The notes under the pieces are model-generated. The model worked only from the letters and a program-made list of their open reading frames with translations, was not told the DNA's origin and searched no databases. This document shows, in pieces, positions 39,168 through 54,333 of a stretch of 64,000 bases of DNA. The DNA is from Flavivirga sp. 57AJ16. GTDB taxonomy: Bacteria; Bacteroidota; Bacteroidia; Flavobacteriales; Flavobacteriaceae. The stretch lies in contig NZ_JAQZAT010000002.1 in assembly GCF_028736925.1 (NCBI RefSeq), positions 186,001 to 250,000 on the forward strand, read 5' to 3'. Each line of letters begins with the position of its first letter. Within the stretch, counting starts at the first letter, position 1. A program made the position numbers and the translations under genes.

Positions 39168-40853
39168 ATGAGATTCGCAATTTTTATCACAATCTGCTCT
39201 TTAGTTACTTCTTGCTCAAATAAGTTCGAACAAGTAGTAAATTCTGAAGAAGATTATCAAATCATTCCAAAACCCGTGACACTAGAAATGTCTAATGGAA
39301 GATTTTTAGTTGACTCCGATACCAAAATTCAGTATGATTCGGATTTAAAAAATGAAGGCAGTTATCTGGCAGAGATGCTAAGCCTTGCTACTGGGAATAC
39401 CATTGTTTCAAGTGCTGATACAGATCAAGGAACTATTATGTTGAAATTAGACAATACCATAACAAATGAGGAAGGCTATACCTTATCTGTAAAATTCGAT
39501 AAAATTATTATTGCTGGAAAAACGGCCAAAGGGGTGCTTTATGGTATTCAGACCTTAAGGCAGTTAATGCCTTCTTCTATAGAAAAGGGGCAGGTGGCAG
39601 AATTAACAATTCCTGCAGTACATATTACAGATAGCCCGAGATATCAATACAGAGGTATGCATTTGGATGTTGCCCGTCACTTTTACGATGTCGATTTCAT
39701 AAAAAAATATATTGATTTGATTGCCATGCATAAAATGAATACATTTCATTGGCATTTAACAGAAGATCAAGGGTGGCGTATAGAAATAAAGAAATACCCA
39801 AAATTAACAGAAATTGGAGCCTTTAGAAATGGCACCATAGTAGGGCATCATCCAGGAACAGAAAACGATAATAAAAAAGATGGTGGGTTCTATACACAAG
39901 AACAAATTAAAGAAATTGTTGCGTATGCGACCAAGCGTCATGTAACCGTTATTCCAGAAATTGAATTACCGGGACATAGTAGTTCGGCTATAGCTGCCTA
40001 CCCGTATTTAAGCTGCTTCCCTAAAGAACCTACGGTGGTTACTAATGATATGATGTCTGAAAAAAGCAAAGAGCTACAAGCTGCTGGAACTCCAAAAGTA
40101 GTACAGGAAACCTGGGGTGTATTTAACGATGTGTACTGTGCAGGTAAAGAGGAAACATTTACTTTTTTACAAGACGTATTAGATGAGGTTATTCCATTAT
40201 TCCCATCAACATATATACATATTGGAGGCGATGAGTGTCCGAAAGAAAATTGGAAGCGTTGTCCAAATTGCCAATCTCGAATTAAAAAGGAAGGGTTACA
40301 TGATGAACATGAGCTTCAAAGTTATTTTATTCAGCGTATAGAAAAATATCTTAATGCTAAAGGCAAGCAAATTATAGGTTGGGATGAAATCTTGGAAGGT
40401 GGTTTAGCACCAAATGCTACGGTAATGTCATGGCGAGGAACTAAAGGAGGTATTGAAGCGGCAAAGCAACATCACGATGTTATAATGACTCCTGGGCACT
40501 CATGTTATTTTGATCATTATCAATCAAAAGATAAGGATAATGAACCTTTGGCAATAGGAGGCAAAACAACTGTTAAAGATGTGTATGCTTATGAGCCAAC
40601 TCCAAAGGAATTAGCAGCCGATGAGCAAAAATATATTTTGGGAGCACAAGGGAATGTTTGGACAGAATACATGGGAACTACCGATCATGTTGAATATATG
40701 ATTTTACCAAGAATGACTGCCCTTTCAGAAGTGGTTTGGTCTACAAAAGCATCTAAAGATTGGGACGATTTTAAATGGCGCTTGGAGCATTTTAAAAACA
40801 GATATGATAATCTCGGCTTAAATTATGCAAAGCATACATTTAAAAGTGAATAG
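39168..40853 (+). CDS. GH20 beta-N-acetylhexosaminidase, lipoprotein
   Basis: This 561-residue protein has a lipoprotein signal (LVTSC, C16), an N-terminal GH20b alpha/beta domain (about 30-155) and a TIM barrel from 160 (YRGMHLDVARHFYDVDFIKK, KMNTFHWHLTEDQGWRIEIK). The catalytic pair D355-E356 is in HIGGDECPKENW. It removes terminal beta-GlcNAc/GalNAc by substrate-assisted catalysis. It completes the set of exo-enzymes for N-glycan breakdown in this locus. Confidence 0.94.
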   Translation: MRFAIFITICSLVTSCSNKFEQVVNSEEDYQIIPKPVTLEMSNGRFLVDSDTKIQYDSDLKNEGSYLAEMLSLATGNTIVSSADTDQGTIMLKLDNTITNEEGYTLSVKFDKIIIAGKTAKGVLYGIQTLRQLMPSSIEKGQVAELTIPAVHITDSPRYQYRGMHLDVARHFYDVDFIKKYIDLIAMHKMNTFHWHLTEDQGWRIEIKKYPKLTEIGAFRNGTIVGHHPGTENDNKKDGGFYTQEQIKEIVAYATKRHVTVIPEIELPGHSSSAIAAYPYLSCFPKEPTVVTNDMMSEKSKELQAAGTPKVVQETWGVFNDVYCAGKEETFTFLQDVLDEVIPLFPSTYIHIGGDECPKENWKRCPNCQSRIKKEGLHDEHELQSYFIQRIEKYLNAKGKQIIGWDEILEGGLAPNATVMSWRGTKGGIEAAKQHHDVIMTPGHSCYFDHYQSKDKDNEPLAIGGKTTVKDVYAYEPTPKELAADEQKYILGAQGNVWTEYMGTTDHVEYMILPRMTALSEVVWSTKASKDWDDFKWRLEHFKNRYDNLGLNYAKHTFKSE

Positions 40854-40899
40854 GTTTTAAATAATGGATATAGAAGAATACATGTAAACAAAAAGAGGC

Positions 40900-41014
40900 A
40901 ATGTCATTAAGTTAAGGATGAAAATGTTGGTCTGAACCTCTTGTCTCTTCTCGAGACAAATTAAAACTGAAGGACACCATGTGATAAAATAAACGCCTTT
41001 AACTTAATGACATT
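40900..41014. repeat. MITE-like element, 115 bp, perfect 16 bp terminal inverted repeats
   Basis: AATGTCATTAAGTTAA at 40900-40915 and its exact complement at 40999-41014. The 83 bp interior includes TTGTCTCTTCTCGAGACAA, itself a nested dyad. It is not coding. The ends preceded by AAAAGAGGC recall inverted repeats of IS elements; a similar AAGAAAGAGGCTAAATCATTAAGGG-type half end is seen around 7189-7213. Confidence 0.65.
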
Positions 41015-41044
41015 AACCCAGTAATATCTAAAACAAATTGTCAT

Positions 41045-41306
41045 TATGTTTTCGCTACTGTAAGCGCTACAATTCCTAAATTTACTTTCGAATATTTAGA
41101 TGGCGGCTGCAATGAAGCTGTCAATATTTATAAGAATACTGCAGAAATTAGAGCCGTAGAATAACTTCCTGAATATTTGAGCAAACATATCAAACCTGAT
41201 ATGAAAACAGGATTATTTGGTCATTGTGTTCTTGAAAAGCGTTTTTTTACTGCTTGTGGCATATGGCTAACCTTTTGTAGCAAACTTCACCATACAAGGA
41301 GTTAAG
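41045..41306 (+). pseudogene. FMN-dependent alpha-hydroxy-acid (L-lactate) dehydrogenase remnant
   Basis: From about 41072 the frame reads IPKFTFEYLDGGCNEAVNIY, KNTAEIRAVE, an in-frame stop, then LPEYLSKHIKPDMKTGLFGH. This is the N-terminal signature of LldD-type FMN oxidases (FEY.DGG..., then ..LFGH). After the stop similarity fades and the frame ends by 41306. The start, the FMN-binding barrel and the catalytic His are missing. Such enzymes occur in fucose pathways that end in lactate. Confidence 0.75.
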
Positions 41307-41400
41307 AGCGTTGTCCGTATGTTTTTTTGGTTCCTGATTCGCATCATTCTCAAATTGATATAATTTTAGAAAATTTAAGGTGTTTTTACATTATGGCCGC

Positions 41401-41436
41401 TTTTGGGCACTTAAGTCTCCTTTTTTTTTAACTTTG
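41401..41436 (+). promoter_or_regulatory. promoter of the sigma-factor operon
   Basis: TTTTG at 41401-41405 (-33 type) and TAACTTTG at 41429-41436 (fits TAnnTTTG) are spaced 23 bp apart. The sigma gene starts at 41467, about 30 bp after the -7 element. Confidence 0.55.
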
Positions 41437-41466
41437 AAAAGCGAACTCTAGTTTTTATGTCTATCT

Positions 41467-42096
41467 ATGTCTTTATTGAATAAATTTAATTTAATCTTGG
41501 TCAATGTATTACCAGGCAACTCTAAAAAAGACTCAGCACCTCTTACCGATGATGAACTTGTCCTACAAATAGTAGAAACAAATAATGCCATTCTCTTTGG
41601 TAAGCTTTATGATAGATACAGTAAAAAGGTGTACAGTAAATGCTATAGTTTTTCAAAAGATAAACATGAAGCTCAAGACCTTGCCCAAGACGTATTTATA
41701 AAACTTTTTACCAAACTGGGCACCTATAAAGCACAATCTAAATTTTCTACCTGGCTATATAGCTTTACTTATAACTTTCTTGTAAATTATAAGAAACAAG
41801 ACACTTCAAAAAAGCTAAAAGAACGTTGGGAAAGATTAAATAAATACGATTATTATTTGGCCTCAGAAGATGATGTTGACGAAGATGATCTTTTCGAATT
41901 AAGGGCTTCTAAGCTTGAAAAAGCTTTAGAACTTATGGAACCCGCAGATAAGGCTTTGCTTTTATTAAAATATCAGGATAATGTATCTGTTAAAGATATA
42001 CAGGCTATTTTAAATATAAATGAAAGTGCTGTAAAAATGAGACTTAAAAGAGCTCGCATAAAATTAATAAAAGCTCACAATAAACTTAAAGATTAA
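41467..42096 (+). CDS. RNA polymerase sigma-70 family (ECF-type) sigma factor
   Basis: This 209-residue protein has region 2 (about 30-95: LFGKLYDRYSKKVYSKCYSF, DLAQDVFIKLFTKLGTYKAQ) and region 4 (about 155-205: PADKALLLLKYQDNVSVKDI, NINESAVKMRLKRARIKLIK). An acidic linker (SEDDVDEDDLFELR) joins them. No transmembrane anti-sigma gene follows; instead two small soluble proteins sharing an NPFK motif lie downstream, the first starting on the sigma stop codon. The stimulus is unknown. Confidence 0.92.
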   Translation: MSLLNKFNLILVNVLPGNSKKDSAPLTDDELVLQIVETNNAILFGKLYDRYSKKVYSKCYSFSKDKHEAQDLAQDVFIKLFTKLGTYKAQSKFSTWLYSFTYNFLVNYKKQDTSKKLKERWERLNKYDYYLASEDDVDEDDLFELRASKLEKALELMEPADKALLLLKYQDNVSVKDIQAILNINESAVKMRLKRARIKLIKAHNKLKD

Positions 42097-42260
42097 TGAG
42101 TAAGAAAAACCCTTTTAAAATAATAGAATTGACAGACCCTATATTACCGGAAACCTTAAAAGAAAATATCATTGAAGATATTATAGAAAGTATTGAAGAT
42201 TCTAAAAAGGACTCCAATGCTGAAGGATCCGATTCTGGTTTAGATACCAACAACACCTAA
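42096..42260 (+). CDS. small acidic protein coupled to the sigma factor
   Basis: A 54-residue protein starting MSKKNPFKIIELTDPILPET, with ATG overlapping the sigma stop by 1 bp (TAATG), a strong sign of translational coupling. The first 30 residues resemble the protein at 42337 (NPFK.I, then PE...+.NI...I). The tail is acidic and Ser/Asn-rich. No signal peptide or membrane helix. Candidate sigma-factor partner, possibly a cytoplasmic anti-sigma peptide; not recognised as a named family. Confidence 0.65.
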   Translation: MSKKNPFKIIELTDPILPETLKENIIEDIIESIEDSKKDSNAEGSDSGLDTNNT

Positions 42261-42336
42261 GATACATATTTTTAAGTGACTTTTTTGTCTCTTTGCTGTC
42301 ATAGAATAATAAACACTGATTAAAGTGATATTGGCT

Positions 42337-42531
42337 ATGGAAAAACAAAACCCATTTAAAAATATCGGACAGCCGCCACATGACGTCCCTGAGGATATTA
42401 GGAATAATATTATGAAAAGCATTACCACGGCTAAACATTTAATGAAAATTAAATTGCTTTTTAAACAAAATCATAAAGCTGCCATGTCCTCATTATTTAA
42501 GAGGAAAATAAATAAGCCGCCATCTAATTAG
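42337..42531 (+). CDS. small basic protein of the sigma operon
   Basis: The start is placed at 42337 (MEKQNPFKNIGQPPHDVPED), giving 64 residues; an ATG four codons upstream is possible. Motif spacing NPFK.I........PE...+.NI matches the 54-residue protein before it, but the C-terminal half is basic and may form an amphipathic or membrane-touching helix (KHLMKIKLLFKQNHKAAMSS). Gap to the previous gene 76 bp. Function unknown. Confidence 0.65.
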   Translation: MEKQNPFKNIGQPPHDVPEDIRNNIMKSITTAKHLMKIKLLFKQNHKAAMSSLFKRKINKPPSN

Positions 42532-42562
42532 CTCAAAAAAACCTGTTACTTTTCTTTGGACA

Positions 42563-43414
42563 TTAAATTTTATTAGTAGCAACTGCTGGTAATATTAATA
42601 AAGGCACTGGGCTATTAAAACTTACTTTATCAACAACATCTTCATTAGTTAAATTATATAAGAAATTATTTTTGTGATGAATGAATGCCACCATATCACT
42701 TTGTGTTTCCTTTATAAAGTCTTTTATAGCTTTGGTTTCTGACGTTTCGTACGTTATTTTATGAAAAAAATATGGGATACCTTCCAATAAATGGGTCAAT
42801 GCTTCTTTATGCCGTTTTTGTTTTTCGGTAAGCATACGATCTTCCATTATTTGCACGATCTTTAACTTTGCTTTATGGTGTTCTAATAGTTTAAATAATG
42901 GTTTTAACTCGGTTTTTACAAATGGTCTTTTATAATTTGTAGAAAAAACAATTTGTTTAATCTTTTTAGGTATATAATCTTGAGGTACTATAATAGTTGG
43001 GCACTTAGAGATGGCATTAATAACCTTTACGGCATGACTTCCTAAAAACACGCTTTTTAAACCTTTCGCCCCTTTTGTCCCCATAATGATAAAGTCTATG
43101 CCATAATCATCTACTATGCTTTTCGTTGATGGAATGAAACGATCTAATTTGCTTATGCTTTTAAATTGATGTTTCGTGTTATGGCTCGTTTTTTTTATCT
43201 GACTTACAACACTTTCTAAATCATTTTTAACGCCTACAGATATGATTTCGACCCATTCATTTCCCCATTCATCCTCTAAAAGATTTAATGGTAAAACCGT
43301 ATGTGCAGAAAACAAGTAAAAGGTCACTTCAAAATCTTCAAAAAGGAACTGTCCATAATGTAACGCATTAAGGGAGCTGTCCGAAAAATCGATTGGTATG
43401 AGTATTTTTTTCAT
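42563..43414 (-). CDS. tandem universal stress protein (UspA family)
   Basis: This 283-residue protein contains two Usp domains. The first starts MKKILIPIDFSDSSLNALHY and has the ATP-loop IIMGTKGAKGLKSVFLGSHA (G-2x-G-9x-G-S type) near 110-130. The second is degenerate, starting KQIVFSTNYKRPFVKTELKP, with no clear ATP loop. Cytoplasmic stress-linked nucleotide-binding protein. It is convergent with the sigma operon and starts opposite the small membrane gene at 43580. Confidence 0.88.
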   Translation of the reverse strand: MKKILIPIDFSDSSLNALHYGQFLFEDFEVTFYLFSAHTVLPLNLLEDEWGNEWVEIISVGVKNDLESVVSQIKKTSHNTKHQFKSISKLDRFIPSTKSIVDDYGIDFIIMGTKGAKGLKSVFLGSHAVKVINAISKCPTIIVPQDYIPKKIKQIVFSTNYKRPFVKTELKPLFKLLEHHKAKLKIVQIMEDRMLTEKQKRHKEALTHLLEGIPYFFHKITYETSETKAIKDFIKETQSDMVAFIHHKNNFLYNLTNEDVVDKVSFNSPVPLLILPAVATNKI

Positions 43415-43828: not shown

Positions 43829-44821
43829 ATGAAAAAAAATCATTGTTTTTACCTTATAGCACTAGGTGTTTTCATATTTGCCCATTCTTGTACAGCGCAA
43901 GAAAGCGGTAATTTAAATAATACCCTCTCTGCATCTGTTCCGAGCGAAGTCGAATTGGCAGAAACCCCTGTACAAAATTTAGACTTGCCCTTACGAATTA
44001 AAGATGATACCATACCATTACGAAAACTTATTGATAGTACACTTCAGAAAAAATTAGAGCAAGAAATTAATAAAAAACCACGGTGGAAAAAACTTGTAGC
44101 CAATAAAAGAATGGCTATTGGAGTAGTGGATTTATCAGATGTAAACAACATACGCTTCGCCTGTGTAAATGGGAACCATATGATGTACGCCGCTAGTTTA
44201 CCAAAAATTGCCGTACTACTTGCTGCAACCGATGCCATAGAAAAAGGGGAGCTTATTGAAACCAAAGCGGTAAAAGCAGATATGAAAATAATGATAAGCA
44301 AGTCTAACAATGCAGCGACTACGCGCATGATTAACCGGATAGGCTACGAAAAAATTGAAGCTGTTTTAACAAGCGACCGCTATAATTTATATGATGAGGA
44401 ATATGGCGGTGGATTATGGGTAGGCAAATGCTACGGTAGCGGTGGTGATACTAACAGGGACCCCTTAAAAAACTTAAGTCATGCAGCATCTGTGACCCAG
44501 GTTTGCAGATTCTATTATTTGCTTGCCCAAGGCAAACTGGTTACCGAACAGCGTTCTAAACTCATGTTGGATATTATGGAAGACCCGGCTTTGCACCATA
44601 AGTTTGTAAATACATTAAATAGAATAGCACCCAATGCACGTTTGTTCCGTAAATCGGGTTCCTGGAAAAATTGGCATTCAGACTCTGTTTTAGTATGGGG
44701 ACAAGATCCGAACAGAAGGTATATTCTTGTAGCTCTCATAGAAGACAACAACGGTGAACAAATTATAAGAAACCTGGTAGAGCCTTTAGAAAGGGTACTT
44801 AAAAATAAAGAAACATTTTAA
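43829..44821 (+). CDS. class A beta-lactamase-like serine hydrolase, exported
   Basis: This 330-residue protein has an N-terminal signal (residues 1-21, ending AHSC, a possible lipobox) and a penicillin-binding fold with S123-L-P-K126, S159-N-N161 and K275-S-G277, the SxxK/SDN/KTG set of class A enzymes. The Omega-loop Glu is not obvious, so it may be a peptidase or esterase rather than a lactamase. A second protein of the same fold lies at 47820-49088. The two frame the Npt-like carrier gene. Confidence 0.85.
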   Translation: MKKNHCFYLIALGVFIFAHSCTAQESGNLNNTLSASVPSEVELAETPVQNLDLPLRIKDDTIPLRKLIDSTLQKKLEQEINKKPRWKKLVANKRMAIGVVDLSDVNNIRFACVNGNHMMYAASLPKIAVLLAATDAIEKGELIETKAVKADMKIMISKSNNAATTRMINRIGYEKIEAVLTSDRYNLYDEEYGGGLWVGKCYGSGGDTNRDPLKNLSHAASVTQVCRFYYLLAQGKLVTEQRSKLMLDIMEDPALHHKFVNTLNRIAPNARLFRKSGSWKNWHSDSVLVWGQDPNRRYILVALIEDNNGEQIIRNLVEPLERVLKNKETF

Positions 44822-44953
44822 AAAAAGGATATCCCAATAGTGGTATTTGAAAAATTGTTTCTAAATTCATAAATCAAAAGATAACTTTTGTGACAGTTAC
44901 ATTTACAACATTAATTATTTTTTGTAAATGAAACGAAGTAACCCTTTGAAAAA

Positions 44954-47782
44954 ATGATAACAAAAGCCATAAAAAAGATTTTCAATATCCGCGATGGAGA
45001 ATTAAAAATAGCTTTGCTCATGCAGGGCTATATCTTTTTTATTATTACAACATTGCTTATTATTAAACCTACGGTAAACTCGCTATTTATATCGGAGGTA
45101 GGGGCAGAAAATCTTCCATTCGGATATCTATTGGTAGCAATAACAGCTGTAATAAGTTCATTCTTTTATGCAAGGGCAACCGAACGGTTTTCATTGCTCC
45201 GTATCATACGGTTTACACTAGCACTGAGTATTTTGTCTTTATTTATATTGGGCACCTTATTATATCTCAACCTCATTAAAGGCTGGTTGTTGTATGGCTT
45301 TTATATAGGAGTGGCCATTTATGCAGTTCTGGCTACCTCCCAATTTTGGGTACTGGCAAATTTGGTATTTAACATCAGGGAAGCCAAAAGGCTTTTTGGT
45401 TTTATTGGAGCTGGCGCAATAGCAGGAGGCATTTTTGGAGGCTATTTAACGACGGTGCTAGCACCCCTTATAGGTAACGAAAACCTCATTTTTGTGGCTT
45501 CTTTATTTTTGGTGTTATGTTTTCCGTTATTGGCCCATATTTGGAAAACCAAAGTATTGTTGCTCAATAGTTTTAAACAGAAAAAACGAATAGCTTCTTC
45601 TAAAGAGAGTCCTTTTAAATTGGTACTGGGCTCTAAGCATTTAACATATTTGGCAGCTATTATTGGTATAGGGGTCATTACTGCAAAGCTGGTTGATTAT
45701 ACCTTTAGTTATATAGCTGCAGAGCGTATTACGGATAGTGACGAATTAACTTCCTTTTTTGGTTTTTGGTTATCGTCGTTTAATGTGGTTTCCTTATTGT
45801 TACAACTATTTTTAACCCGGAGAATAGTGGGGGTTTGGGGCGTTGGTTTTTCATTATTAATATTACCGGTTCTTGTTTTTATGGGGGGCTTGCTCTTTTT
45901 TGTTTTTCCAGAATTATGGGTTGTTATACTTTTAAGGGCTATAGATACAAGTTTTAAGCAGTCTATTAACAGATCTGCTGTCGAGCTTATTGCTTTGCCA
46001 CTTCCATTCCAACTTAAAAGGAAAACGAAATCGTTTATAGACGTGGTTGTAGATAGCATTGCTACGGGAGTTGCAGGATGTATACTCATTTTTCTTATTA
46101 AAGGGCTAGATGTTTCGCCCAAGTATATAATAATGCTTATTGTACTGCTTACCTTTGTTTGGGCATATTTTGTTTTCAAACTACGCACAGCCTATTTTTT
46201 ATCTTTTAGAAAAAACTTAAACACTATGGCTTCGCACCCTAAAAAACGTGAAACAATGGTATCCAAGGAGTCCTTTATTAAAGGGATGCGCCATGTATTT
46301 CAACAAGGAGAAGAAAGAGAAATTCTTTATATGTTGGGAAAAACCCTTGAGATCAATGATCGTCGATTGGAAAGCCTCATTTCTAAATTGTTGTACCACC
46401 CTTCAAACAAAGTGAAAACGGCTGCCTTACAAAACTTGTTTTTTCTTAACAATAGAACCATATACCTCGAAGTGCAGCAATTACTACATAGTGAAGATGA
46501 TGAAGTGGTACTTGCCGCCCTGGAATACCTACTGCTTCATGCAGATACTAGCGAGGATATCGTCTTTGACAAGTATTTAAACCATCCTAACGAACGTCTT
46601 GCTAATGCAGCGTTAATCTGTCTTGCTAAAGAATCAAGGGATAACCAAAGTCTTAAAAAAAAATATCACTTGTATAAGCGCATTCAGGAAAAAGCATTCC
46701 AAATTGAAGAACTCGAAGGAGCATTTAAAACAAAGTTTCAAATAGAGCTTCTTGAAATTATAGGCTTTTCAGATTATAAAGATGGATATATGATGCTTTT
46801 AGAAGCTATAGAGAGCGATGATTTGCAGTTACAAAAGGCAGCCATCTTGGCTGCGGGTAATACCATGAATCAGGTTTTTATACAACCTATTCTAGAAAAA
46901 ATGATAAACAAGGAGCAGCGGGAAACGGTAATTAAGGCACTATTACAATTTGACGAAGGCATGTTGCCTATATTGCGCAATAATATTACAGCTACCGAAG
47001 TGACCTTGCAAATAAAGCAATTCATACCAAAAGTGATGGCTGCTTTTAATTCACAGTCGGCCGTAAATACTTTAATTGTGAGCTTTAAGGAAGCTCAAGA
47101 CCTATCCGTTAGGCTGGAGTGTGTTACGGCCTTGGCCAAATTGAAGGAAGAAAATATAAGTTTGCACTTTAATGAACGTGAAATAGCCAAGCTCATTTTG
47201 GAAGAGTGCAAATTATACGATAGTACCATTAGCGCCATGCATACACAAATAATTGTGCATTATCTACGTAGGAAGAAGTTAAAGCAGCTACTGTCTGAAA
47301 ACGAAATGCAAGCCAGGGAAAGTTTAATGGAACTCCTGGAACGAAGATTGGAAAATGGGTTAAATCGAATTTTTAAATTGTTGGAACTACGGTATGCCTC
47401 TCAAGATATTCGAATGGCCTATGAGGGTATTTTAAGCGAAGAACATGAAAAACGAACCAACGCTATCGAGTTTTTGGATATGCTGTTAACCCCTTCCTTA
47501 AAAGGTGCCTTAATTCCCATAGTGGAGGCTACCATACTGGATACTTCATCTGAAGAGGTGATTGAAATGATAAGTAAAAGCAAGATTACGGAATTCGATT
47601 GTTTTAGATCAATTTTAGAAGGCCGGGACTTGAAATTAAAATTAGCCGTACTTTATCTAATCCAGCAGATGGCCCACGTAAAGTACCTGCCTCTTTTAGA
47701 GACGCTTGTCGATAGTTATGATGATAAAGTTAAGAGCTTTGCAAGAAATGCAATGAACACCATACATGTAAACATACATTAA
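44954..47782 (+). CDS. Npt1/Npt2-family (ADP/ATP carrier-like) membrane protein with HEAT-like C-terminal domain
   Basis: This 942-residue protein has about 12 membrane helices in residues 1-410, in the MFS-like fold of nucleotide transporters (LLIIKPTVNSLFISEVGAEN, FWVLANLVFNIREAKRLFGF, GAIAGGIFGGYL). A cytoplasmic domain of about 500 residues follows, built of helical repeats of HEAT type (KVKTAALQNLFFLN, DEVVLAALEYLL). Family members move ATP/ADP or other solutes in plastids and intracellular bacteria; in free-living Bacteroidota the role is not established. Placed in a cluster with a secreted dikinase. Confidence 0.85.
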   Translation: MITKAIKKIFNIRDGELKIALLMQGYIFFIITTLLIIKPTVNSLFISEVGAENLPFGYLLVAITAVISSFFYARATERFSLLRIIRFTLALSILSLFILGTLLYLNLIKGWLLYGFYIGVAIYAVLATSQFWVLANLVFNIREAKRLFGFIGAGAIAGGIFGGYLTTVLAPLIGNENLIFVASLFLVLCFPLLAHIWKTKVLLLNSFKQKKRIASSKESPFKLVLGSKHLTYLAAIIGIGVITAKLVDYTFSYIAAERITDSDELTSFFGFWLSSFNVVSLLLQLFLTRRIVGVWGVGFSLLILPVLVFMGGLLFFVFPELWVVILLRAIDTSFKQSINRSAVELIALPLPFQLKRKTKSFIDVVVDSIATGVAGCILIFLIKGLDVSPKYIIMLIVLLTFVWAYFVFKLRTAYFLSFRKNLNTMASHPKKRETMVSKESFIKGMRHVFQQGEEREILYMLGKTLEINDRRLESLISKLLYHPSNKVKTAALQNLFFLNNRTIYLEVQQLLHSEDDEVVLAALEYLLLHADTSEDIVFDKYLNHPNERLANAALICLAKESRDNQSLKKKYHLYKRIQEKAFQIEELEGAFKTKFQIELLEIIGFSDYKDGYMMLLEAIESDDLQLQKAAILAAGNTMNQVFIQPILEKMINKEQRETVIKALLQFDEGMLPILRNNITATEVTLQIKQFIPKVMAAFNSQSAVNTLIVSFKEAQDLSVRLECVTALAKLKEENISLHFNEREIAKLILEECKLYDSTISAMHTQIIVHYLRRKKLKQLLSENEMQARESLMELLERRLENGLNRIFKLLELRYASQDIRMAYEGILSEEHEKRTNAIEFLDMLLTPSLKGALIPIVEATILDTSSEEVIEMISKSKITEFDCFRSILEGRDLKLKLAVLYLIQQMAHVKYLPLLETLVDSYDDKVKSFARNAMNTIHVNIH

Positions 47783-47787
47783 CTAGA

Positions 47788-47817
47788 ACAACCTGAATCC
47801 GATTCAATAACGGTTGT
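47788..47817. terminator. bidirectional terminator-like dyad
   Basis: ACAACC (47788-47793) and GGTTGT (47812-47817) pair around a loop with the nested dyad TGAATC/GATTCA, in the 37 bp gap between convergent genes. Confidence 0.5.
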
Positions 47818-47819
47818 GT

Positions 47820-49088
47820 TTATTTTATACCTCTAATAGTGTGGTCAATTCTACTTGCCAATGCCAAATGATCTCCAGCAGAGTTTTTACTTAAAACATT
47901 GGTCATTAAACAGACCATATATTTAGCACCATCCGTATGCTCTATAATAGCCACGGAATTCATATAGTTAAACACGTTACCTCTATATTTGCCACAAGCA
48001 GCATCTTTTGTTTTATCACATTTGTATAAACTGCCAGATTTAAAATATACGGCTGCATCTCGTAATTCGGGGGCCTGTGCATATCGTATCCTTCGGTCTG
48101 TCATGTACATTAAACGTTTGATCTCAAGACTGGATTTTACATCTACGACCTTTCCTTGTTCTAGCTGTACCATCCATTTCATTAAACCCAATGGCGAACC
48201 TATACTGCCTCCTTTGCTTCCTACGTAGGGGTTTGCTCCTCTGGTAAAAAATGTACCTAAACGCCATTCGTCTTCTGTAATGCCTAATGGTCTCAATGGT
48301 TGGTTTGCTACAGTAATGGCAAGGTCTGTAATATCGTTTTTAGAACCCTTTTTAAAATAAGCATCGGCATCTTCTTGTGTCATTGTGGGGTATTTATCTC
48401 CAAAAGCGGCCATTAAAAGAGCCTCTCTCCAAACGACACTTGCGGCGCCATTGTTACTTACGGAAAGCATATGGTCTGCCCATTCAAAAAGAGAAAATAC
48501 ATCACTTGCTATGGCCTGGCGCTTCACTAACTTATTGGTCTCAATATTAAAGATTGGTATCGTATGCTCATCTGTTAACACCCAAGGGCCTCCTTTTACC
48601 ATTTTGGTTTTTAATAATTCTACCCGTTTGCTATAATCATTGGGATATATTTTGGCTAACTGATCGAACAGCGCAGTTACTACGACCAATTTACCTACAC
48701 TACCTGGTTGATAACCTCTGGTTTCATTTTGTTGTGCATAGCGTAAGTTTTCAGGATGGGTCATATCTAAAATCGTTATAGAGTAACTTTTATGCAATCT
48801 GGGAAAAAGGGCATCTATTTTCTTTTGTAATACCGCATCTTCTACCAAAATATCCTGAGTATTGACCTGCTTTTTGGAGAGTAAATTCAATTTAATATCA
48901 TTGATGCTCTTTAAAGCACCTGCAGGTAATCTGGCATCTGGTAAATCGCCGGAAAGGGATAATTGCAGGCGTTTCAATCGCTTTATTCCAGAATATTGAT
49001 AGCCGTCAATGGGGTAGATAGTATCCTTTATAGGCATGTTAAGCGACATACATAAAAAGGTGATTATAGTCATTTTAAATAATTTCAT
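47820..49088 (-). CDS. class A beta-lactamase-like serine hydrolase, exported (long form)
   Basis: This 422-residue protein has a signal peptide (MKLFKMTIITFLCMSLNM) and the set S130-V-G-K133 in GYQPGSVGKLVVV, S211-N-N213 and K350-S-G352. Cysteines in CDKTKDAACGK (357-367) may form a disulfide, suited to the periplasm. It lies 4 bp after the dikinase-like gene on the same strand, so the two are almost certainly co-expressed. Target unknown; it could be a peptidoglycan or glycan-ester hydrolase. Confidence 0.85.
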   Translation of the reverse strand: MKLFKMTIITFLCMSLNMPIKDTIYPIDGYQYSGIKRLKRLQLSLSGDLPDARLPAGALKSINDIKLNLLSKKQVNTQDILVEDAVLQKKIDALFPRLHKSYSITILDMTHPENLRYAQQNETRGYQPGSVGKLVVVTALFDQLAKIYPNDYSKRVELLKTKMVKGGPWVLTDEHTIPIFNIETNKLVKRQAIASDVFSLFEWADHMLSVSNNGAASVVWREALLMAAFGDKYPTMTQEDADAYFKKGSKNDITDLAITVANQPLRPLGITEDEWRLGTFFTRGANPYVGSKGGSIGSPLGLMKWMVQLEQGKVVDVKSSLEIKRLMYMTDRRIRYAQAPELRDAAVYFKSGSLYKCDKTKDAACGKYRGNVFNYMNSVAIIEHTDGAKYMVCLMTNVLSKNSAGDHLALASRIDHTIRGIK

Positions 49089-49092
49089 GTTC

Positions 49093-52002
49093 TTATAATT
49101 TTGTGTTCAATAAGATTTCTTTTTGGGTATTCACACTTGGGGTAATCGATTTTAGATAGTCAGATCCCAATGCATTTTTGTTTTCAACAAAGGGACGTAT
49201 TTGGAACAACCATAATGTATTGTCTTTAAACCCAAGTTCTACATCATAAGCGTCCTTATAGCCCGATTTGGTCTTCTTTGCCAATACTTTTCTAATTGTT
49301 GCTGCAAGTTCGTTTATTTCTGAAATATTCTCGGCGTTGAGAATTGGTTTTTCAAACGTAGCTACTTTTTTTCCGGTACCTCCTGTAGGAGGTAGGGTAT
49401 TATAATAAGTTTCGCGTGCTGGCGATACCAGTTGATAACTGCCATCTGGTTTTATAGTATAGGATTCTGCCGCTTGGCCGTCAACGGCACCCCCCGCACC
49501 ACGACTAAAAGCAATGGTTAAATCGGTATCATTTTCTGTAACAATTCCCTTGGTTATCAATACGCCCGAATAATCTACATCTACCGATGGGATGACCAAA
49601 ATAGATGGAAATACATTTTCGGGGTTGAGCAGGTATTTTTGCCGCCACTTAAAACTGCGCTCTGTGTAAGGTGAGGCCCATACATCACGAATACCTTGCA
49701 AAATATTATCTTCTTCAAGGGCATTAAAAATAGTTAGGTTTAAACCAGCTCCCGTAAAATCCTTTAGGTCTTCCATATTGGTATCACTGCGCAAAAAAAC
49801 AGGTACGTTACCTATAGGTTTTCCAAAGATGTTTTGAAAAGATGTACCTATTTCAGAAGAAAACCGAGATTTTAGCGGCATTGTTTTAATGGCTGTTCTT
49901 AAAACTTCCAGTTGACGTAATTGATAATTTTCTACTTCTTTTTCCGAAATGCCCTGAGCAAGTTTTTTCTCTGCTTCGGCAAATATGGCATTTAAAAACG
50001 CCCAATATGATTTGCCCTGATTAGGCATAGGTTGATCCATATGGCTTTTAAAAACCCCAAAAGGAATAACAAATCCTTCTACTACCTTTTCAGGAAACAT
50101 AGATTTTAACTGCCCCAGGTTTGCTGCTTTAGGACCACATAGTTTTCCGGAATCTTTGGCATCTACCTCGCGAAGGTTCAACACATTGTCAAGGTCTAAC
50201 CGTATATCATTTACAGGTACGGTAATTTTATCTTCCTTTCGTACTTTTTTGGCAAAAAGTGCTTGTTCCTCAGAAGTCATCCTGATGGCTTCTTTTAAGA
50301 TAACCGTTCCACGATTTGATACCGCATAAAAAACCTTTTTCCCGCTAAAAACCAATAGGTCTTGTAAATTTTCATCAGATAGGGCAGCATTGGGAATACC
50401 TAAATTTCGTGCAAGCAATTGTACATGGGAAACCAAATTTCCTTCTGCTACTGTTGCAATGCCCGCTACTGGTTTTAAATCTGATGGCGCATGTTCAAAA
50501 ATGTAAATCTTATCGTCAGATACATCAATGTCATCTGGGTTTCTTTTTATAACCACTAATTCCCCAAGAGCATACCCAGGGTTTAACCCACGTATGCTAC
50601 TTTGGTTTGTAAGGTTTAGCACTTTATTGGATAATGATGATTCCTTGGCTATAAAGAGTCCTAGGTCGCCCACCGCTTTTCCTAATTGTAAAACTACAGA
50701 AGAACGAATACGGTCATCGATAAATCCATATGCCTTAGGCTCAAAAACGGTATAGGTATTAACCACATTTTGATAGCTCGCCTTCACCATTGCTGTACTC
50801 CATTCTACTACACCTCTTGCCGTTTCTAGTTTTTTAGTGAGCTCACCTAAAGTTATTTTGTTGGAGGTGTCTGGCTTTAAAATAGATGCTGCTTTTTCCC
50901 ATTCCCATAACTCAATAGAACCGCTTCCAGCAGCTGCTATACTCAGTACATAAATTTTATTAAGTTGCTCCTCTAGCGTAACAGGCTGCCATGAAGCACT
51001 GCTTTTAAACACGATGCTTTGTAATTGGTTGGCAATATCAAGTAGCTGTAAACGTTTGCTGGCGCTTTTTTCTTTAGTAATATCTTTTCTAATATTAAAT
51101 AAGAGCAACGCAGTTTCCTTGGTTAATGTTGCAGGTGGGCTATTTATATTGTTCTGTACATAAACCTTAATGGCAGACGTTAAAGAACTGGTTGCCGATA
51201 GCTTTTCTGCTTTTGTAAAAATGTCCTGTAAATCAATCGGCTTATGGAATTTTTGCATGGTGGCCACCAATTCATCAAATTTCTTTGCCAATAAAGGTGT
51301 TAGTTTAGATTCATGTGCTTTTTTAAATTGTATGGTCCTCTCAATATCGCTTTCCTCTGGATTGCTGTGGATTTTCACGCGCAAGTCCATAAACTTGCCG
51401 TATTGGTCTGAAATTACTTTAGACTGAGCACGCATTGATTGCGAAACATCATCATCTCCTTTATGTGGAATATCCCTTAACGATTGCAATACCAGAAAAT
51501 AATGTTTAGTGAGCACTTCATCTTTTGTAAAAAGCCATTTGTAAAAATTAACGCCCCATTGTTCCTCATCTTCAATTTGAATGGCCCCTCTATAATATTG
51601 TCCTTTTTGGTTGATCCAGCCATCATCTATACGAGCTAGATAGCGCCCCAATTGATATTGCTTCAATCTCGAATAGTTTTTAGAAACATCTAAAAAATCC
51701 GCCTTATCCGTATATGCTAAAATCTGGCCTAAAAAGATATGATTGCGTTTGCCCAGGGCAATAATATCCTCTTTATATGTGGCATGTTGAATACCGCCTA
51801 CAGCATCCGGACAAGGGTCTTTTGCTGCGCGTACAGTGCCATCGTCACAAAACCACTGGATATTCTTATAAGGCCCTCTAATGTCGTTTTTGTAAAAATC
51901 TATTTGAGCTTTTATCTTTTCTGGAGAAATAGTTTGAGCCGTTATAATATTAACAATTATAAGTGCCAAAAGAATGGAAACCCTAAATATATTTTTTTTC
52001 AT
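49093..52002 (-). CDS. secreted dikinase-like protein (phosphohistidine domain then ATP-grasp domain, glucan water dikinase order)
   Basis: This 969-residue protein starts with a signal peptide (residues 1-23). A novel helical N-terminal region follows with C52 and C64 in a WFCDDGTVRAAKDPCPDAVGG-type stretch, an apparent disulfide. A swivelling phosphohistidine domain carries H526 in GNLVSHVQLLARNLGIPNA. The C-terminal PPDK-type ATP-grasp domain (about 620-950) has CGPKAANLG at 622-630 and FLRSDTNMEDLKDFTGAGLN at 736-755. The His-then-ATP order and SDTNMEDL..GAGL wording resemble plant glucan/phosphoglucan water dikinases rather than PEP synthase. Export of an ATP enzyme is highly unusual. 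Confidence 0.75.
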   Translation of the reverse strand: MKKNIFRVSILLALIIVNIITAQTISPEKIKAQIDFYKNDIRGPYKNIQWFCDDGTVRAAKDPCPDAVGGIQHATYKEDIIALGKRNHIFLGQILAYTDKADFLDVSKNYSRLKQYQLGRYLARIDDGWINQKGQYYRGAIQIEDEEQWGVNFYKWLFTKDEVLTKHYFLVLQSLRDIPHKGDDDVSQSMRAQSKVISDQYGKFMDLRVKIHSNPEESDIERTIQFKKAHESKLTPLLAKKFDELVATMQKFHKPIDLQDIFTKAEKLSATSSLTSAIKVYVQNNINSPPATLTKETALLLFNIRKDITKEKSASKRLQLLDIANQLQSIVFKSSASWQPVTLEEQLNKIYVLSIAAAGSGSIELWEWEKAASILKPDTSNKITLGELTKKLETARGVVEWSTAMVKASYQNVVNTYTVFEPKAYGFIDDRIRSSVVLQLGKAVGDLGLFIAKESSLSNKVLNLTNQSSIRGLNPGYALGELVVIKRNPDDIDVSDDKIYIFEHAPSDLKPVAGIATVAEGNLVSHVQLLARNLGIPNAALSDENLQDLLVFSGKKVFYAVSNRGTVILKEAIRMTSEEQALFAKKVRKEDKITVPVNDIRLDLDNVLNLREVDAKDSGKLCGPKAANLGQLKSMFPEKVVEGFVIPFGVFKSHMDQPMPNQGKSYWAFLNAIFAEAEKKLAQGISEKEVENYQLRQLEVLRTAIKTMPLKSRFSSEIGTSFQNIFGKPIGNVPVFLRSDTNMEDLKDFTGAGLNLTIFNALEEDNILQGIRDVWASPYTERSFKWRQKYLLNPENVFPSILVIPSVDVDYSGVLITKGIVTENDTDLTIAFSRGAGGAVDGQAAESYTIKPDGSYQLVSPARETYYNTLPPTGGTGKKVATFEKPILNAENISEINELAATIRKVLAKKTKSGYKDAYDVELGFKDNTLWLFQIRPFVENKNALGSDYLKSITPSVNTQKEILLNTKL

Positions 52003-52833: not shown

Positions 52834-54333
52834 ATGAAAACAAAATATTTTGATCTTATCGATCAAACTTTTGATTTTCCGCAGGAAGAATTTACTTTAA
52901 ACAACAACGAGTTATACTTTCACGGAATTGATTTAATGGAACTTATCAAAAAACATGGAGCTCCACTTAAGTTTACATACCTTCCTAAAATCTCAGATAA
53001 CATTAACAGGGCAAAGGGGTGGTTTGAAGACGCTATAAAAGAACATAACTATCAAGGCCATTACAATTATTGCTATTGCACTAAAAGTTCACACTTTAAG
53101 CATGTACTGGATGAAGCGCTTAAAAATAACATCCATATCGAAACATCCTCTGCATTCGATATCGATATTGTTGAGAACCTTAAAGCACATGGAAAAATAG
53201 ACGATAATACGTTTGTTATAAGCAACGGTTTTAAACGTGACCAATATATTCAAAACATAGCAAGGTTAATTAATAATGGACACAAAAACTGTATTACCAT
53301 AATAGATAATTATGAAGAGATCGATCTTTTAAGTGACACTATTAAAGATACTTTTAATATAGGCATTCGTATTGCTTCTGAAGAAGAACCAAAATTTGAA
53401 TTTTATACCTCTAGATTAGGTATTGGTTACAAAAATATTGTTCCTTTTTATACCAAGGAAATTAAGGACAACCCAAAAGTTAACCTTAAAATGCTACACT
53501 TTTTCATTAATACAGGTATTCGGGACAATGCCTATTACTGGAATGAACTATTAAAATGTATGAAAGTGTATGTGAACCTAAAGAAGATATGTCCTAGTCT
53601 GGATAGTCTGAATATAGGTGGTGGTTTTCCAATTAAAAATTCACTTGCTTTTGATTATGATTACGCCTATATGGTAAGCGAAATTATTAGCCAAATTAAA
53701 CAGACCTGTGATGAGGCTGGCGTAGATGTTCCTAATATATTTACAGAATTTGGAAGCTTTACTGTTGGTGAAAGTGGTGGCGCTATTTATAAAGTGCTCT
53801 ATCAAAAGCAACAAAATGATCGTGAAAAATGGAACATGATCAATTCTTCCTTCATTACAACAATGCCAGATACTTGGGCTATTAACAAACGTTTTGTAAT
53901 GCTTGCCATAAATGGCTGGAACAAAGAATATGAGCGTGTTCTTTTAGGGGGCTTAACTTGTGATAGCGATGACTATTACAATAGTGAGCAACATATGAAT
54001 GCTATTTATCTCCCTAAATTCAATAAGGAGAAGCCTTTATACATAGGCTTTTTTAATACGGGGGCCTATCAAGAAACCATTGGTGGTTTTGGTGGTTTAC
54101 AACACTGTCTTATTCCTACGCCCAAGCACATTTTAATAGACCGTAGCGAGGATGGCCAATTAATGACTTCGGTATTTACAGAAGAACAAACATCCGAGCA
54201 ATTATTATCAATTTTAGGTTATGACTTTAATGTTAATAAAGCATTAGCCAAAACAGGCACCTTATTAAATGAAGATAAACCTTTTAAAGATACAAACAAT
54301 CACAACATCAAATTAAAGTCTTTGACACTTTAA
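52834..54333 (+). CDS. speA: arginine decarboxylase (alanine-racemase fold, PLP)
   Basis: This 499-residue cytoplasmic enzyme decarboxylates arginine to agmatine. PLP lysine K84 is in YCYCTKSSHFKHVLDEAL, the phosphate-binding region is NIGGGFPI, and the second-subunit active-site CDSDD motif is in LLGGLTCDSDDYYN. GESGGAIYKVLY is typical of the Bacteroidota SpeA type. It is the first gene of the operon with speB (38 bp gap), the DHS-like gene and a small acidic protein. Confidence 0.92.
   Translation: MKTKYFDLIDQTFDFPQEEFTLNNNELYFHGIDLMELIKKHGAPLKFTYLPKISDNINRAKGWFEDAIKEHNYQGHYNYCYCTKSSHFKHVLDEALKNNIHIETSSAFDIDIVENLKAHGKIDDNTFVISNGFKRDQYIQNIARLINNGHKNCITIIDNYEEIDLLSDTIKDTFNIGIRIASEEEPKFEFYTSRLGIGYKNIVPFYTKEIKDNPKVNLKMLHFFINTGIRDNAYYWNELLKCMKVYVNLKKICPSLDSLNIGGGFPIKNSLAFDYDYAYMVSEIISQIKQTCDEAGVDVPNIFTEFGSFTVGESGGAIYKVLYQKQQNDREKWNMINSSFITTMPDTWAINKRFVMLAINGWNKEYERVLLGGLTCDSDDYYNSEQHMNAIYLPKFNKEKPLYIGFFNTGAYQETIGGFGGLQHCLIPTPKHILIDRSEDGQLMTSVFTEEQTSEQLLSILGYDFNVNKALAKTGTLLNEDKPFKDTNNHNIKLKSLTL

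Follow-up and report, generated by a model that had tools for sequence, protein, structure and literature searches.

The DNA analysed here, referred to as the window, is a stretch of 64,000 nucleotides from Flavivirga sp. 57AJ16 (NZ_JAQZAT010000002.1, positions 186,001 to 250,000). It contains four adjacent genes, coding for a dikinase-like protein (DIK), a carrier of the NTT family (NPT) and two serine hydrolases (SH1 and SH2), which very likely constitute one functional unit, since they are found together in related bacteria in a gene order kept far beyond chance. Each of the four proteins belongs to a known superfamily. No description of this four-gene system was found in the open-licence literature; the module is real and tightly linked, and apparently undescribed. 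We know of no system combining an extracytoplasmic dikinase of the phosphoenolpyruvate (PEP) synthase type, a nucleotide-type carrier and enzymes of the penicillin-binding type.

The locus

The first-pass annotation of the window had already placed these genes side by side, with SH2 only 4 bp from DIK and the carrier convergent with both, an arrangement borne out by the list of open reading frames (ORFs) and by Pfam; 37 bp separate NPT from the SH2-DIK pair. The coordinates of the genes and of the regions distinguished within DIK are collected in Table 1.

Table 1. Genes of the module and regions of DIK, in positions of the window
Feature	Position	Strand	Description	Basis
SH1	43829..44821	+	330-aa serine hydrolase, class A beta-lactamase/penicillin-binding-protein-like, signal-bearing	ORF, Pfam PF13354
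NPT	44954..47782	+	942-aa NTT (TLC) carrier with C-terminal HEAT repeats	ORF, PF03219 and PF13646
SH2	47820..49088	-	422-aa serine hydrolase, probably membrane-anchored or exported	ORF, PF13354, model
DIK	49093..52002	-	969-aa dikinase-like protein, predicted to be exported	ORF, Pfam, alignments, model
Signal-like N-terminus of DIK	51937..52002	-	about residues 1-22	sequence, rule-based test
N-terminal domain of DIK	50623..51933	-	residues 24-460, mostly helical, C52 and C64 invariant	secondary structure of model, alignment
Phosphohistidine-type region of DIK	50263..50589	-	about residues 472-580	PF00391 below cut-off, profile comparison; residues 504-542 low-confidence in model
H526 codon	50425..50427	-	proposed phosphate-carrying His of DIK	invariance, alignment with PEP-synthase His
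ATP-grasp (PPDK_N) domain of DIK	49171..50142	-	residues 621-944	Pfam, Foldseek, hhalign

Conservation within the family

Orthologues of DIK were sought in 60 relatives and in 395 genomes of the order, and full-length ones (50-73% identity) were found in 13 other genomes; within the genus, two of 12 genomes carry the gene. Eleven of the 13 show the four genes side by side as the window does (L044 with an additional frame), while NPT-SH1 is located about 7 kb from DIK-SH2 in G007 and the two pairs are on different contigs in G384. Among 57 chosen genomes of the same family, SH1, SH2 and full-length NPT were present in all 14 with DIK and in none of the 43 without it, two of which showed weak similarity confined to the NTT core. 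These 43 negatives were hand-picked from genomes devoid of a full-length DIK orthologue, and distant PPDK_N matches occur in seven of them (G012, G018, G022, G029, G036, G061 and G160).

The arrangement was also followed in 80 named loci, the best 80 of 352 relatives on one-genome-per-species contigs, which, where labelled to that level (some records read 'Bacteroidetes' or 'Flavobacteriales'), belong to Flavobacteriaceae genera such as Maribacter, Arenibacter, Allomuricauda, Winogradskyella, Lutibacter and Formosa. Since the named loci and the numbered genomes have members in common (G007 = L064, G034 = L112, G019 = L097, G380 = L140), the two sets are not independent. SH2 lies downstream of DIK on the same strand in all 80, at 200 bases or less in 76 and at 432 to 1593 bases in four. 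The window order of all four genes is found in 65 of the 80, within the distance limits set for this analysis, and L067 shows it with wider gaps; two loci end with their contig. Whole-genome searches detected full-length NPT in 14/14 of the remaining genomes, and in 11 of the 12 NPT loci fetched from them SH1 adjoins NPT, the twelfth having SH1 beside SH2. Thus, DIK pairs with SH2 and NPT with SH1, and the unit consists of these two pairs, which are convergent as a rule. Among the other neighbour families, the commonest occurs in 14 of the 80 loci. The conserved linkage by which the first-pass annotation proposed to check its reading is therefore strongly kept.

A chance neighbourhood is ruled out by the co-occurrence and by the gene order kept across genomes. 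A mobile cassette was also rejected as the main explanation, the gene trees (support values not printed) broadly keeping families together; one same-family sequence is placed with another family in the DIK tree.

Distribution across Bacteroidota

Beyond the family, a profile of the N-terminal domain of DIK alone matched 13 of 395 evenly drawn Bacteroidota genomes, and the SH2 profile likewise matched 13 of 395 at E <= 1e-10; with both draws taken as the same set, these are the same 13 genomes, of six families according to their labels. Eight loci outside the family were inspected. All four genes are contiguous in L157, L158, L160 and L162 (with the carrier turned round in L162), the contig of L159 ends within NPT, DIK, SH2 and SH1 are together in L163 and L164 with NPT absent from the fetched 20 kb, and in L161 DIK stands by itself, the same contig carrying SH2 and NPT in other places. 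SH1 was looked for within the fetched stretches in L159 and L161. Strong NPT matches were obtained in six of the eight outside-family genomes (split over two contigs in G484).

A further 80 Bacteroidota genomes were taken as DIK-negative, as members of the phylum draw outside its 13 positives, and seven of them gave NPT matches at E <= 1e-10. Together with the carriers of the two deepest lineages, G606 and G591, described below, this indicates that the close NPT type, wherever detected, accompanies DIK, and that the wider NTT-HEAT family does not. In G606 (G606:C7:47924-52243), which has the dikinase, and in G724 (G724:C14:201529-209851), taken as being without it, an NTT core protein has a more distant NTT-HEAT protein beside it or close by; such pairs are perhaps another NTT system.

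The dikinase-like protein

Several lines of sequence and model evidence support the assignment of DIK to the ATP-grasp dikinases, with a probable swivelling histidine domain. Pfam places PF01326 (PPDK_N) on residues 621-944 with 92.7 bits against a cut-off of 27, and no second PPDK_N protein was detected in the same genome at E <= 0.001. This domain was aligned across its whole length with seven PEP synthases of the order (hhalign 97.6%, E 3.9e-12). The positions C52, C64, H526, K625, R738, E744, D745, D920, E922, Q934 and R936 are invariant in an alignment of 57 sequences (56 plus the window), which was obtained from 80 frames after dropping nine for length or exact motif and then 15 of 71 as near-duplicates, and the same catalytic set, H526 included, is invariant in a nine-row alignment that includes six relatives of 17-22% identity. 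Eight catalytic residues of the ATP-grasp domain are thus invariant and aligned with PEP synthases. Rifampin phosphotransferase (RPH) has been reported to require Lys22, Arg117 and Thr136, Glu297, a metal ligand there, being dispensable (PMC4844700). R738 and T757 of DIK correspond to Arg117 and Thr136 in an alignment whose tag offset was counted by hand, and K625 is the counterpart of Lys22 via the PEP-synthase profile alignment.

The phosphohistidine domain claimed around H526 by the first-pass annotation was recovered in part. H526 is aligned with the conserved histidine of four PEP synthases by profile comparison (hhalign, probability 46.6%, E 2e-4); PF00391 matches all 14 DIK orthologues at E <= 10 (best 0.016), giving 14.2 bits on the window protein, below its cut-off of 23.1. 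C52 and C64, which would form the putative disulfide near the N-terminus, are invariant as well.

The model of DIK has a mean pLDDT of 79.1 and a pTM of 0.75, with residues 504-542 below 50. When it was compared with the PDB by Foldseek, 15 matches were obtained at E <= 0.001, all of them RPH, PEP synthase, pyruvate phosphate dikinase (PPDK) or the dikinase-type HpeI, the best solved match of the ATP-grasp domain being the ATP-binding domain of RPH (5hv6, TM 0.80-0.81 by target length); against viral models the best E was 5.7e-6, for ATP-grasp-type proteins only. The N-terminal domain is mostly helical in the model and finds no match with PEP synthase by profile comparison (0.6%). Pfam found no PEP/pyruvate barrel family on DIK at E 0.1. 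An ordinary cytoplasmic PEP synthase is ruled out by the missing barrel, the reversed domain order and the signal-like start.

Other proteins of this kind were also noticed. Exported-looking proteins of about 625-727 aa, with a histidine region and an ATP-grasp domain in which the catalytic positions are kept, are encoded at L056:8884-10767, L057:9279-11153, L061:8584-10764 and L062:9202-11082. In addition, proteins of about 1312-1324 aa (L059:5628-9599 and L060:7401-11336) fuse PPDK_N to CARDB and to a type IX secretion tail (Por_Secre_tail), and are apparently destined for the cell surface or the exterior.

The carrier and the serine hydrolases

NPT belongs to the NTT-HEAT family, with PF03219 (TLC ATP/ADP transporter) at 49.9 bits (cut-off 21) followed by HEAT repeats (PF13646 HEAT_2, 51.5 bits, cut-off 27.7), and is matched to the solved plastid-type and other ADP,ATP carriers 9j3j/9j3n. 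In a quick tree without support values, the carriers of G034, G025, G019 and G286 stand apart from that of the window, although their dikinases group with the window DIK; the carriers may have been exchanged or may evolve faster.

Both hydrolases are over the cut-off of 22 bits for PF13354 (Beta-lactamase2), SH1 with 61.8 and SH2 with 29.7 bits, and carry the SxxK, SxN and KSG motifs, which places them in the class A beta-lactamase/PBP-A family. The motifs of SH1 (S123xxK126, S159-N-N161 and K275-S-G277) are invariant in 12 orthologues except for N160, which is Asp in some, and those of SH2 (S130xxK133, S211-N-N213 and K350-S-G352) are invariant in 40 sequences, after two of 80 frames were removed for their length and 39 of the 78 left as near-duplicates. 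The SH2 alignment also shows an invariant cysteine pair, C357 and C365. The two proteins are related to each other by profile comparison (94.3%, E 9.9e-8). The model of SH2 (pLDDT 84.7, pTM 0.86) has as its top Foldseek matches Sphaerobacter beta-lactamase and PBP-A, with TM of about 0.75 by target length and an identity to the listed matches of 12-16% over the aligned parts. SH1 scores 17.8 bits against the NCBIfam beta-lactamase cut-off of 600 (NF000511) and SH2 has no NCBIfam beta-lactamase match; a sequence search of the PDB returned nothing for SH2 and one match for SH1, at E 0.046, which is no hydrolase. SH2 shares the fold of PBP-A and class A beta-lactamases, and both hydrolases share their motifs, but SH2 differs from them in its extra segments and its low identity, and neither hydrolase reaches a beta-lactamase cut-off in NCBIfam. 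SH1 is apparently duplicated downstream of NPT in the Lutibacter loci L086, L104 and L136 (68 SH1 frames in 65 loci; long SH1 spans).

Predicted export

Signals were assessed with a simple rule of our own, not SignalP, against a background of ORFs of more than 250 aa; it replaced a cruder hydropathy test which was non-discriminating (background 66%). The rule is passed by 66 of 81 DIK sequences, 47 of 66 SH1 and 40 of 81 SH2, by none of 70 NPT and by 94 of 545 background ORFs. Of the two signal peptides claimed by the first-pass annotation, on DIK and on SH2, that of DIK holds for the window protein under this rule, which SH1 of the window passes as well; SH2 of the window fails it and may be membrane-anchored. 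The cysteine pairs of DIK and SH2 would suit an oxidising compartment. Export of DIK is likely, being supported by the signal rule together with the invariant cysteine pair.

Relation to known systems

With RPH, DIK has in common the ATP-grasp fold and key residues, a putative carrier histidine in a separate domain and, presumably, an acceptor-specific third domain. RPH differs in its order (ATP-grasp, rifampin-binding and histidine domains) and has no part in such a module, whereas DIK has the order helical domain, histidine, ATP-grasp, a signal-like N-terminus and 61 bits against the cut-off of 999 for the NCBIfam rifampin phosphotransferase equivalog. PEP synthase and PPDK share PPDK_N and, probably, the phosphohistidine-type region with DIK, but they have the ATP-grasp domain first and a PEP/pyruvate barrel, in contrast to the reversed order, the lack of a barrel match and the predicted export of DIK.

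The glucan and phosphoglucan water dikinases (GWD and PWD) place the histidine before the ATP-grasp domain, as DIK does. They differ from DIK in that the latter is bacterial, is predicted to be exported and has no match to a carbohydrate-binding module. Plant GWD may also resemble DIK in its RSDTNMEDL..GAGL motif and in its central helical part. There was no solved GWD/PWD structure according to the available part of PMC12892837.

The NTT-HEAT fusion carriers surveyed by Major et al. 2017 (PMC5381601) resemble NPT in having an NTT domain and then HEAT repeats; in the available part of that survey the partner of some members is a cyclic-nucleotide-binding domain rather than any dikinase, and no function is reported for the clade.

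A possible role in extracytoplasmic phosphotransfer

We tentatively propose, with a probability slightly short of even, that the four genes encode an extracytoplasmic phosphotransfer module consisting of an NTT-HEAT carrier, a swivelling-histidine dikinase and two enzymes of the PBP-A/class A beta-lactamase type. NPT, in the inner membrane, would pass a nucleotide, most likely ATP rather than AMP, ADP or phosphate, to the periplasm. The ATP-grasp domain of DIK would use that nucleotide to phosphorylate H526, and the histidine domain would then swing and deliver the phosphoryl group to a substrate that is bound by the helical N-terminal domain and probably belongs to the cell envelope. That same material would acylate SH1 and SH2, which would open or trim it either ahead of phosphorylation or afterwards; their fold favours peptidoglycan-type peptides or amino-acyl groups over starch-like glucans. 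The data support the unit, the domain types and the probable export; the donor, the direction and the acceptor of the phosphotransfer are what we infer. The reading of the first-pass annotation is thus upheld in part, nucleotide transport by NPT, a polymer substrate and gating of the carrier by the HEAT domain being conjectural. The fully specified version, in which the carrier exports ATP and the exported dikinase phosphorylates an envelope polymer, probably peptidoglycan-related, that is processed by the two PBP-A-like enzymes, is possible but rather unlikely.

The periplasm is normally poor in ATP. If the proposal is true, bacteria deliberately carry ATP or another phosphoryl donor into it, ATP-driven chemistry takes place in a compartment thought to be ATP-less, a covalent phosphate mark on the envelope is still to be found, and the NTT-HEAT clade acquires a function. 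The linkage makes the role of these carriers testable, a question left by the 2017 survey (PMC5381601).

Several observations weigh against the proposed phosphotransfer. In the deepest lineages, G606 and G591, the carrier is absent from the 20 kb retrieved with the other three genes, G606 having a more distant NTT-HEAT protein only (480.7 bits) and G591 the NTT core only; conversely, three of the 80 genomes taken as DIK-negative have a nearly full-length NTT-HEAT protein at about the distance of that of G606. No carrier or Beta-lactamase2 genes were seen among the 10 neighbour proteins scanned beside the distant exported-looking relatives of DIK. The glutamate of the PEP-synthase GLGE motif is replaced by Gly838 in all 57 DIK orthologues, and the phosphohistidine region is both poorly modelled and below the PF00391 cut-off. 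Two lysines of the plastid carrier that are probably important for ATP/ADP exchange are unmatched in NPT, which has V41 and T371 in the alignment. The NTT-HEAT clade is described as functionally uncharacterised in the available part of PMC5381601.

Other explanations have to be weighed against these data. The replacement by Gly838 could mean that DIK transfers no phosphate, its ATP-grasp domain serving as a sensor or binder of a nucleotide or metabolite that controls the hydrolases or the carrier, and the low ATP content of the periplasm would agree with this. All other catalytic positions, however, are invariant both in the 57 sequences and in the distant relatives, which would be needless for a binder; moreover, as Glu297 of the rifampin enzyme is dispensable (PMC4844700), a residue not shown to be equivalent in position to Gly838, losing a single acidic ligand would not necessarily inactivate the protein, and a purely binding role seems improbable. 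The flow of phosphate could also be reversed, with the exported dikinase using AMP and the phosphate of an external phosphorylated compound to make ATP (or a different nucleotide), which the carrier would then import, as a means of scavenging nutrients or energy. PPDK-type reactions are reversible (PMC5371819), known NTTs are mostly nucleotide importers (PMC5381601) and within the family carrier and dikinase are genetically linked; yet this direction is not readable from the sequence, it leaves two acyl-enzyme hydrolases without a role and, in the deepest lineages, the linkage of the carrier is looser than that of SH2. We give scavenging a low probability.

The order of the histidine and ATP-grasp domains had led the first-pass annotation to glucan and phosphoglucan water dikinases, and an exported GWD phosphorylating alpha-glucans or algal polysaccharides in the periplasm would be a further candidate. 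PF22973 (GWD1_pHisD) gave sub-threshold matches in seven of 14 DIK orthologues at E <= 10 (best 0.012), the window DIK not being among them, but it is over its cut-off in none of the 395 Bacteroidota genomes, with one weak match, containing stops. No carbohydrate-binding module was detected by Pfam on the module proteins and no conserved polysaccharide genes in the flanks of the 80 named loci, and serine hydrolases fit a glucan substrate poorly; the kinship is at best putative, and the candidate is distinctly improbable. Finally, the closest solved relative of the DIK ATP-grasp domain being RPH, and both hydrolases combining their three motifs with the class A fold family, the genes might serve in detoxification, an RPH-like kinase and two beta-lactamase-like enzymes inactivating antibiotics outside the inner membrane with the help of a transporter. 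Against this, the scores lie far under the NCBIfam cut-offs given above for rifampin phosphotransferase and beta-lactamase, no rifampin-binding domain was seen in DIK, and a strict four-part unit broadly tracking families is unlike a resistance cassette; this explanation is accordingly given very little probability.

Neighbouring genes

A clean empty site was sought, and two genomes without a DIK orthologue were found to retain the gene at 52834-54333 without the module, their other flanks being different. In the window, a GH20 beta-hexosaminidase, an extracytoplasmic function (ECF)-type sigma factor and a universal stress protein were identified by Pfam to the left of the module (39168-43414). 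In G007 the stretch interrupting the module (L183:7-6452) encodes an ATP-grasp protein with circular permutation, an Alpha-E protein, one protein of the proteasome type, another with a pyruvate-kinase barrel, and a Na/Ca exchanger; the ECF-type sigma factor and the universal stress protein still adjoin the counterpart of the gene at 52834-54333 there, and the module is on their other side.

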